Assembly: GCA_947466695.1 (NCBI GenBank)
Contig: CANIFC010000003.1
Coordinates: 1 to 58,635, forward strand
Reading direction: 5' to 3'
Length of the DNA: 58,635 nucleotides
Source: Oxalobacteraceae bacterium
GTDB taxonomy: Bacteria; Pseudomonadota; Gammaproteobacteria; Burkholderiales; Burkholderiaceae_D
The notes under the pieces are model-generated. The model was not told where the DNA came from. It made no database searches and saw only the letters and a list, made by a program, of their open reading frames with translations. Within the stretch, counting starts at the first letter, position 1. Each line of letters opens with the position of its first letter. The position numbers were made by a program, and so were the translations under genes. Below are positions 29,393-32,354 of this stretch, in pieces.

Positions 29393-29604
29393 AGTCATGG
29401 ATGGTGGCAGGGCAGGAATGCTTGTGCCAGGCAAGCGCGGGCAAAGCTTTGACAGCTCGTGTACGATAACGCACCGGTCAAGGCTTGCCATTGCGTTGCC
29501 GTGGCCTAACCAAGTACACAAACCAGGTAGCTTCACTGACGCTGTCACCCCGTTGTAAAGCTGCGCTAAAAACCGATTTATCCCACCCGTTTAAAGGACC
29601 ATCC

Positions 29605-30213
29605 ATGAAGCTCTATTACTCTGCAGGTGCCTGCTCGCTGACACCGCATATTGCCCTGAAAGAAGCCGGCTTGGCTTTTGAGGCGATTTCAGCGCCGACC
29701 AAGACACATCAGTTACCCGACGGTAGCGACTACTACCTGGTCAATCCCCTTGGCTATGTGCCTTTGCTGGTTCTCGATGACGGTAGCCAGCTGCGTGAAA
29801 CCGCGGCGATTATCCAATATATCGCTGATCTGGTACCGGAAAAAGACCTGGCCCCGGCCAACGGCAGTTTTGCGCGCTACAAGCTGCAAGAGTGGCTGCA
29901 CTTTATCGGTACCGAATTGCACAAGGGTTTTGCCCCCCTGTTTAATCCGGCCACACCAGCAGAATTAAAGCCGGCGATCATCGCACGACTGCAAGAACGT
30001 CTCGCCTTTACAGACAGCGAGCTGGCAGGCAAGACCTATGTAATGGGTGACACGTTCACGGTCGCCGATGGCTATCTGTTCAACATCACCAACTGGTCAA
30101 GGTTAGTCGGCGTTGACCTCTCTGGCTATGCCAACCTGCTCGCGATACGCGCCCGCATTGCGGCCCGTCCCGCAGTGATCGAGGCGATGAAAGCGGAAGG
30201 CTTGATCAGGTAA
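29605..30213 (+). CDS. Glutathione S-transferase family protein
   Basis: MKLYYSAGACSLTPHIALKEAGLAFEAI; NPLGYVPLLVLDDGSQLRETAAIIQYIADL. Confidence 0.95.
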   Translation: MKLYYSAGACSLTPHIALKEAGLAFEAISAPTKTHQLPDGSDYYLVNPLGYVPLLVLDDGSQLRETAAIIQYIADLVPEKDLAPANGSFARYKLQEWLHFIGTELHKGFAPLFNPATPAELKPAIIARLQERLAFTDSELAGKTYVMGDTFTVADGYLFNITNWSRLVGVDLSGYANLLAIRARIAARPAVIEAMKAEGLIR

Positions 30214-30340
30214 GCATCCGGGATGTATGTCTGCTGCAGCGCTGCCGGTGTGTGCGCTACGGCAGGCACATCAGCACGTCACAAGTACACACTGATCTCG
30301 CATAGAAAAGCGTTTTCCTGCAAGCAGATAGCGTTCAGGC

Positions 30341-30405
30341 AAAAAAAACCCGCTAGCATAAGGCTGCGGGTTGAAATCCAAACCTTTGGGGTATTGGAGG
30401 AGACA
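30341..30405 (-). ncRNA. Candidate anti-SD small RNA, copy 1
   Basis: Minus strand: TATAGT -10 (30412-30417), then TGTCTCCTCCAATACCCCAAAGGTTTGGATTTC, then AACCCGC...GCGGGTT stem and T8. Confidence 0.7.
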
Positions 30406-30580
30406 AGACAGACTATATAGATGCAGGACAACTTTGTATGCTTTGTTATTTATATATCAGACATATACAATGTGAATATATGCCATTTGTTATATTTTAT
30501 TTAATTATTTCTTGAGTGATCAACAGGATGCCAGCCGCATCTGACAATTTTTTTCTGCCCCAGGCCGCGGATCGCCAGGC

Positions 30581-30640
30581 AAAAAAAAGCCCGCAGAGTG
30601 TGCGGGCTAAATCCAAACCTTAGGAGGTGTTGGAGGAGAC
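30581..30640 (-). ncRNA. Candidate anti-SD small RNA, copy 2
   Basis: Minus strand: TTGGAC-17-TATAGT promoter, then GTCTCCTCCAACACCTCCTAAGGTTTGGATTT, then AGCCCGCacactctGCGGGCT and T8. Confidence 0.75.
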
Positions 30641-30800
30641 AAACGAACTATATCGCACCGCAGCATTTTGTCCAATACTTTTTAATAGATATCAGTCATT
30701 ACTCAAACAGATATCTGCTGATCAAGCTTTTGATCAAGAGGCCTAGCAAACGGTAACAGGCTTGGCTGCGTCGCTCATTCACCTAGCAGAAAAGAAATGC

Positions 30801-30866
30801 AAAAAAATGCCCGCGAGCTAAAAAGCTGCGGGCTAAATCCAAACCTTAGGAGATGTTGGAGGAGAC
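30801..30866 (-). ncRNA. Candidate anti-SD small RNA, copy 3
   Basis: Minus strand: TATAGT -10 (30873-30878), then TGTCTCCTCCAACATCTCCTAAGGTTTGGATTT, then AGCCCGCAGC...GCGGGC stem and T7. Confidence 0.75.
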
Positions 30867-31163
30867 AGAAGAACTATACCGCATCGCAGCATAAAAACCC
30901 ATTTGGTTTTTTATATATCGCTCATAAGAAATTACTATGACAGGACTGCGGCCGCATTCAACACTCTTTTGGCCCGATAACTGCAAAGCGCATGGAGCGC
31001 GCATGGAGCACGCCTGAAAAGCACCTGCACCTGTTGGCAACACCCTGGCAGAGGCGCAGCCTCCGGGATGAAGGGTGCATGTCAGCCAATACCGCTGACA
31101 AAATGCATTACACTCAAACTATCTGGGAAAACAAGACCTTATAACAGCATCACGGAGACCGCC

Positions 31164-32354
31164 ATGAAGTTAATTGACCCTATCGTCCAGTTTCACGCCG
31201 AGTTGCAGCAAATTCGCCGCGCCATTCACGCCTACCCGGAACTATGTTACGCAGAACACCGCACCTCGAGCCTGGTAGCGGAAAAACTGCAGGAATGGGG
31301 TATTCCCATTTTGCGTGGCCTCGGAGGAACCGGCATTGTCGGCATCATTAAAAATGGCAATAGCGAGAGAGCGATCGGCCTGCGTGCGGATATGGATGCC
31401 TTGCCGATGCAGGAATTCAATACCTTCGCGCACGCCTCTAAAAATGACGGAAAGATGCACGCCTGCGGTCATGATGGCCACACCGCCATGTTGCTCGGTG
31501 CAGCCCACTACCTGTCGCAGCACAGAAATTTTGACGGCACCGTGTATGTCATCTTTCAACCGGCGGAAGAAGGCGGCGGTGGTGCCAGGCGGATGATGGA
31601 CGACGGCTTGTTCGTGCAATGCCCGATGCAGGCAGTCTTTGGCATGCATAACTGGCCGGGCGCCGCCGCTGGCAGCTTTGGCGTGACGGCCGGCCCGATG
31701 ATGGCATCCTCCAATGAATTTGAAGTGGTGATCAAGGGCAAGGGCGCGCACGCGGCGCAGCCACACAAGAGCATCGACCCGATCATGGTGGCAGTCCAGA
31801 TTGCCCAAAGCTGGCAAACCATTATCAGCCGCAACGCCAGTCCGCTCGATTCAGCAGTACTGTCAATTACCCAGATTCATTCGGGTAGTGCGACCAATGT
31901 GATCCCGGACGAAGCCACCCTGATCGGTACGGTCAGGAGTTTTACTACCGAAATGATCGATCTGGTCGAACGGCGCATGCGCGATATCGCCAGCCATACT
32001 GCGGCGGCCTTCGACGCCACGGTGACGTTTGAATTCAAGCGCAATTACCCGCCGCTGCTCAATCATGCCAAGGAAACGGCGTTTGCCGTCGAGGTGATGC
32101 AGTCTATCGCCGGACCCGATAACGTCAACGCGCATGTCGAGCCAACCATGGGTGCCGAGGATTTTGCCTTCATGTTGCAAGAAAAGCCGGGCTGCTATGT
32201 CTTTCTTGGTAATGGTGAAGGCGAACACCGGAGCATGGGTCACGGCCTGGGGCCCTGCAATCTGCATAACGCAAGCTATGATTTTAATGATGATCTGTTA
32301 CCGATTGGCGCCACTTACTGGGTCCGGCTGGCAGAAAAATTCTTACAGGACTGA
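31164..32354 (+). CDS. M20-family amidohydrolase (hippurate hydrolase-like)
   Basis: IRRAIHAYPELCYAEHRTS; LRADMDALPMQE; HACGHDGHTAMLLGAA; QPAEEGGGGARRM. Confidence 0.95.
   Translation: MKLIDPIVQFHAELQQIRRAIHAYPELCYAEHRTSSLVAEKLQEWGIPILRGLGGTGIVGIIKNGNSERAIGLRADMDALPMQEFNTFAHASKNDGKMHACGHDGHTAMLLGAAHYLSQHRNFDGTVYVIFQPAEEGGGGARRMMDDGLFVQCPMQAVFGMHNWPGAAAGSFGVTAGPMMASSNEFEVVIKGKGAHAAQPHKSIDPIMVAVQIAQSWQTIISRNASPLDSAVLSITQIHSGSATNVIPDEATLIGTVRSFTTEMIDLVERRMRDIASHTAAAFDATVTFEFKRNYPPLLNHAKETAFAVEVMQSIAGPDNVNAHVEPTMGAEDFAFMLQEKPGCYVFLGNGEGEHRSMGHGLGPCNLHNASYDFNDDLLPIGATYWVRLAEKFLQD

Follow-up and report, generated by a model that had tools for sequence, protein, structure and literature searches.

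The 58,635-nt stretch of DNA analysed here (the window) raises the question of what is encoded by three repeated minus-strand units within positions 30335-30900, and of what controls their expression. The units lie between a glutathione S-transferase (GST)-like gene (29602-30213, plus strand; Pfam PF00043/PF13409) and a divergent M20 peptidase/amidohydrolase gene (31161-32354, plus strand; Pfam PF01546). A direct reading of the DNA placed them where an earlier sequence-only reading had seen them, with 5' ends at 30867 (copy 3, the first in the minus-strand direction), 30641 (copy 2), and 30405 (copy 1); the intervals, previously given as about 220 and 240 bp, were 226 and 236 bp. Every unit possesses a TATAGT -10 box (minus strand; 30873-30878 in copy 3, 30647-30652 in copy 2, and 30412-30417 in copy 1), followed 5-6 nt on, well within the 10 nt or so originally described, by the pyrimidine-rich block TGTCTCCTCCAA, a first hairpin closing with TTTGGATTT, and, as had also been described, a GC-rich terminator hairpin ending in 7-8 T. 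The -10 box of copy 3 is kept in relatives, and the start site behind it is a predicted one; that of copy 2 was recovered by a promoter scan as well and is preceded at a distance of 17 bp by the -35-like TTGGAC already noticed there (30670-30675, minus strand). Both a simple promoter scan and a simple terminator scan were passed by copy 2 only. The earlier description needed a small correction, as copy 3 reads ACATCTCCT and not ACACCTCCT. Copy 1 has AATACCCCAAAGG where copy 2 has AACACCTCCTAAGG and has thus lost the second CCTCC, as originally stated; a second CU tract is present in the first hairpin of copies 2 and 3 and is lost from copy 1.

The sequence-only reading had suggested an Rfam family of toxic small RNAs from Betaproteobacteria, and the Rfam scan that it asked for recovered this family. 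At the gathering threshold, the whole window gave a single match, to RF02278 (Betaproteobacteria_toxic_sRNA), on copy 2 (30581-30641, minus strand; 58.5 bits against a cut-off of 50 bits, E-value 4e-11), which is the copy nearest to the family consensus. In a permissive scan, the same model matched at full length on copy 3 (30801-30867, minus strand; 46.0 bits, E-value 6e-8) and copy 1 (30340-30405, minus strand; 44.7 bits, E-value 1e-7), both under the cut-off. The fold z-scores were -4.4, -4.7, and -3.9 for copies 2, 3, and 1, respectively, with none of 200 shuffles equally stable, and the minimum free energy structures agreed with covariation on two hairpins, the second being the terminator with its U tail. 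An alignment of 22 diverse copies contained 35 double-sided changes, compared with 11.3 in shuffles, and 97.3% standard pairs over both helices; the signal was gone when the pairing partners were slid. The 5' UGUCUCCUCC block, carried by all three copies, was near-invariant across the same 22 sequences. Judged by the covariance model and the fold, the three units are new members of the known family RF02278, whose name is said to go back to Kimelman 2012. The host is placed in the Burkholderiales, the nearest relatives of the neighbouring GST protein being from Comamonadaceae/Burkholderiales.

The interpretation of the units as tandem anti-Shine-Dalgarno (anti-SD) sRNAs is supported by the family match, the near-invariant 5' CU block, and the compensating stems. 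Weaker conservation of the CCTCC block than of the hairpin in related genomes had been named in advance as evidence against it. The first block shows nothing of the kind, since it stays near-invariant in the 22 copies while the stems change by compensation; the second CCTCC, on the other hand, is lost in copy 1 and in some relatives. The earlier mention of the alphaproteobacterial "cuckoo" RNAs held as a resemblance only. Those CCUCCUCCC RNAs likewise occur as tandem copies with a CU-rich anti-SD stretch; they belong to another bacterial class, however, and the full Rfam scan of the window gave no match of that kind. The suhB model RF00519, which covers MmgR (alpha-r8) of Sinorhizobium meliloti, reached 16.6 bits on the window against a cut-off of 41, and the NmsRb model 29.3 bits on copy 3 and 17.3 bits on copy 2 against a cut-off of 52.

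RF02278 copies were found to be widespread in relatives. The organism's own genome (3.6 Mb, 65% complete assembly) carries six clear copies, three in the array, two on contig C161 (322 bp apart), and one on contig C18. All 44 genomes examined from the genus were positive, and the table of positions shows clusters of 2-4 neighbouring copies in 30. Within the taxonomic family, the RNA was found in 179 of the 196 genomes and 42 of the 44 genera, with up to 20 copies per genome. Across the order, 111 of 200 genomes carried it, and those outside the taxonomic family mostly had one or two copies. A homologue of the M20 gene adjoins sRNA copies in 27 loci of relatives, which indicates that the site of the array is conserved; the M20 gene itself is probably a conserved flank only, outside the mechanism. 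The GST gene had no match in the sRNA loci of relatives. In Burkholderia, the family RNAs are not in tandem according to Sass et al. (PMC5688073), so that the tandem layout represents a real difference.

The genus copies fall into the array class A (CTCCAACACCTCCTAAGGTTTGG), a class B (CTCCACCTACTCCTTTGGTGG) with another upstream region, and a minor third form. A set of 73 non-redundant class A copies shows joint conservation of promoter, CU block, and terminator. This joint conservation, the covarying stems, and the M20-adjacent site kept in 27 loci all make it very unlikely that the three units are mere leftovers of duplication, decaying or silent, that persist by chance and regulate nothing from this locus, as might be supposed from the scores of copies 1 and 3 under the Rfam cut-off and from the absence of both the second CCTCC and an operator-like motif in copy 1. 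It is extremely unlikely that the region belongs to a longer minus-strand transcript, whether as a leader, a repeat element, or a terminator cluster: Bordetella S17S is indeed processed from a 190-nt precursor (PMC11722255), but here every unit comes with an individual -10 box, at a constant distance, and an individual U-tailed terminator, no minus-strand coding sequence lies within reach downstream, and the downstream GST gene is on the opposite strand.

Class A promoters share two blocks, an upstream GATAT repeat and TG[CT]TGC-N3-GC directly before the -10 box. The repeat, seen upstream of copy 2 as GATAT-N17-GATAT (30689-30715, minus strand), is kept in the 73 class A copies, where it lies some 50-80 bp ahead of the RNA start with a 22-bp periodicity, and is likely to represent two half-sites for an activator. 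The second block resembles known operators of the polyhydroxybutyrate (PHB) regulators PhaR and PhbF. For Herbaspirillum PhbF, footprinting supports the operator TG[N]TGC[N]3GCAA (PMC3206438); for Sinorhizobium PhaR, the motif has the core YGCRNYGCR (PMC12542648). This core occurs in the putative operator TGCTGCGATGCGG of copy 3 (30879-30891, minus strand), which abuts the -10 box on its upstream side, and in the putative operator TGCTGCGGTGCGA of copy 2 (30653-30665, minus strand), which lies in the -35/-10 spacer. The two sites differ from the PhbF motif by two mismatches and one mismatch, respectively, and the copy 1 promoter contains neither the core nor the PhbF motif; one copy each in two related arrays (L029 and L036) is likewise without the core. 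A phaP matrix gave p values of about 0.004 for copy 3, about 0.007 for copy 2, and 0.40 for copy 1, and because the first such matrix had been trained on consensus-picked sites and was partly circular, the test was repeated with the two motifs from the papers.

An initial tally of 68 distinct class A copies placed TGNTGCN3GC at precisely 25 or 24 nt ahead of the 5' end of the RNA in 60 of them. YGCRNYGCR was found in 89.3% of 84 class A promoters, which are related by descent and hence not independent, in all cases at -22 or -21 between -35 and -10, compared with 2.6% of random genome 60-mers and none of 21 class B promoters. When up to one mismatch was allowed, TGNTGCN3GCAA was found in 87% of class A promoters, 2.2% of random sequences, and 4.8% of class B promoters. 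The phasin (phaP) promoters of the genus passed both motif tests in 30 of 30 cases, 19 of them with the exact PhbF motif. The arrangement of sRNA and motif recurred in 61 of the 196 genomes of the taxonomic family, representing 14 of its 44 genera, with one match for the reversed control; at copy 3, its pattern matches 30858-30891. By inspection, the 3' arm of the motif coincides with the -10 box, and part of its conservation could therefore reflect promoter function.

These figures have to be weighed against another explanation, namely that the units are ordinary RF02278 anti-SD sRNAs whose spacer motif is recognised by a different regulator, not PhaR, or is kept as a component of an unusual core promoter, with expression following starvation or the stringent response as in the Neisseria NmsR siblings. 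The exact PhbF consensus was present in 0 of the 84 class A promoters, and the full 21-bp Sinorhizobium motif with its AT arms, absent from the window copies, was present in 3.6% of class A promoters versus 93% of phaP promoters; the further conserved direct repeat upstream also points to another regulator, and the NmsRs are under RelA control (PMC5362039). Against this stand the same core in all 30 phasin promoters of the genus and its absence from class B sRNA promoters. Moreover, promoter spacers are not normally conserved in sequence. We regard this explanation as a serious but rather unlikely one, and on balance we favour the testable hypothesis, drawn from motif position and sharing, that the spacer motif is a PhaR/PhbF operator. 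A PhaR link is plausible because PhaR control of an sRNA is already known: Sinorhizobium PhaR represses MmgR via a dyad between -35 and -10 (PMC8401924; PMC12542648). For the B. cenocepacia members, PMC5688073 refers to a common upstream motif in its Fig. S3; a plasmid search for named Burkholderia records for comparison with that motif returned just two short Pseudomonas matches.

A PhaR gene is present in the organism's own genome (PF07879, G000:C102) and in 43 of the 44 genomes of the genus. All 17 RF02278-free genomes of the taxonomic family (G049, G083, G091, G142, and 13 others) also lack PhaR; as most of these are small and belong to two genera, the co-absence is confounded by genome reduction, although it persists at 2.2-2.6 Mb, where four genomes have both, six have neither, and one has the sRNA only. 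The motif occurred upstream of phaR at only 3 of 29 loci, so that autoregulation through it is not supported in the genus. The pattern TTTGNTGCRNYGCR has 19 matches in the organism's own genome, the intergenic ones including three class A sRNA promoters, phaP, and a position upstream of sdhC. Sinorhizobium PhaR also bound its own sdhC promoter (PMC12542648). As a separate observation, contig C198 of the own genome (L269:1349) has a PhaR-like site that is a perfect palindrome, TTTTGGTGCATTGCACCAACA, in the interval separating sdhC from a divergent regulator-like gene. At the phasin loci (L219-L248), many promoters have a pair of PhaR-like sites spaced by 56 bp, the first lying immediately upstream of a TTGAC -35 box and the other near the expected transcription start.

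Taken together, we give a probability of roughly 0.7 to the reading that the array consists of three separately promoted and terminated, trans-acting RF02278 sRNAs, which would be repressed by PhaR/PhbF at copies 2 and 3 and would block mRNAs for uptake and catabolism. Each unit would yield an RNA of 61-67 nt in which a free 5' UGUCUCC is followed by a first hairpin, bearing the second CU tract except in copy 1, and by a U-tailed terminator hairpin. Together with Hfq, the CU tract at the 5' end would pair with the purine-rich ribosome-binding sites of a few mRNAs and block their translation, a mode of action shown or strongly supported in relatives. The targets would be mostly mRNAs for taking up and degrading carbon compounds and amino acids. 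In the absence of PHB, free PhaR/PhbF, bound at the conserved motif between -35 and -10, would repress copies 2 and 3; as PHB accumulates, PhaR would be held on the granules, the RNAs would be made, and further uptake and catabolism would be throttled. Copy 1, which has neither the motif nor the second CU tract, is probably PhaR-independent with a narrower target set. The rise of B. cenocepacia family members in glucose medium (PMC5688073) fits the PHB circuit expected here.

As to the pairing partner, the sequence-only reading had allowed for mRNA Shine-Dalgarno sequences and for 16S rRNA; only mRNA ribosome-binding sites are expected from the relatives. The search for targets covered 590 genes obtained by simple ORF calling on 816 kb of the own genome. 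At each energy threshold, composition-shuffled RNAs let more of the 590 genes pass than the real CU region did, and since the pairing energies do not exceed those of shuffled CU-rich RNAs, we claim no target list. An uninterrupted complementarity of 11 nt at the ribosome-binding site was found for only two genes, a hydantoinase/oxoprolinase-like gene (L343:6962) and a gene for a 560-aa protein (L309:17180). The phaP mRNA was considered as a main target, as proposed for MmgR, and is not favoured because its pairing with the sRNA was weak (about -5 to -13 kcal/mol).

The known members of RF02278 include ncS03, ncS05, ncS27, and ncS62 of Burkholderia cenocepacia, which are double-hairpin RNAs, S17S of Bordetella pertussis, and Hsnc59/63/86/107 of Herbaspirillum seropedicae. 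The units described here share with them the covariance model, size, double hairpin, 5' CU block, and occurrence of several copies per genome; they differ in forming a tandem array, a layout that the Burkholderia authors report not to occur there, and in the PhaR-like operator of the promoters. Bordetella S17S represses translation at ribosome-binding sites, with 70 regulated genes that have matching sites (PMC11722255). It is cut from a longer RNA, whereas class A RNAs appear to start directly after their own -10 box. Overexpression of B. cenocepacia ncS27 slows growth and its silencing speeds growth (PMC5688073), whereas Bordetella S17 left the exponential growth of E. coli unimpaired (PMC11722255), which shows that not all members are toxic. 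The structurally similar Neisseria NmsR siblings (NmsRA/NmsRB, RcoF, NgncR_162/163) are likewise in tandem, as two sRNAs, act through two CU-rich anti-SD tracts (PMC5362039), have metabolic targets, and slow E. coli growth when expressed; they differ in having three stem-loops and RelA control and in the low NmsRb model score given above. If the PhaR step holds, MmgR would be alike in having a dyad for PhaR in the -35/-10 interval and in being repressed by PhaR; by model it is not homologous, and it acts on phasin expression.

The control of RF02278 RNA accumulation was described as unknown by the Burkholderia authors (PMC5688073). For these RNAs, widespread in betaproteobacteria, the promoter motif shared with phasins offers a specific candidate answer, PHB status sensed via PhaR. 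We think it somewhat probable that the PhaR regulon includes the array-type RF02278 sRNAs in at least 14 genera of the taxonomic family, with carbon-storage status setting the dose of a tandem, copy-number-amplified anti-SD sRNA that would halt the import of carbon compounds and amino acids. If so, the array would be a betaproteobacterial counterpart of the PhaR-MmgR circuit, the same regulator-sRNA logic would operate in alpha- and betaproteobacteria on unrelated RNAs, and the "toxic sRNA" family would gain a physiological role as a link between carbon reserves and the uptake of nutrients. Further attention is best directed at the conserved tandem locus and the PhaR-like operator.

In the genus, class B copies (L010-L028, L037, and L038, around positions 1450-1565) often show the inverted repeat GGTTAGTT...AACTAACC immediately 5' of the RNA; their processing may resemble that of S17/ncS27. 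The third form, TGACTACTCCTCCAAGGGTGTGGATT (L184-L187, around positions 1500-1600), scored about 34-37 bits, has a CGTCAT-rich upstream region, and was found in one subclade of the genus.
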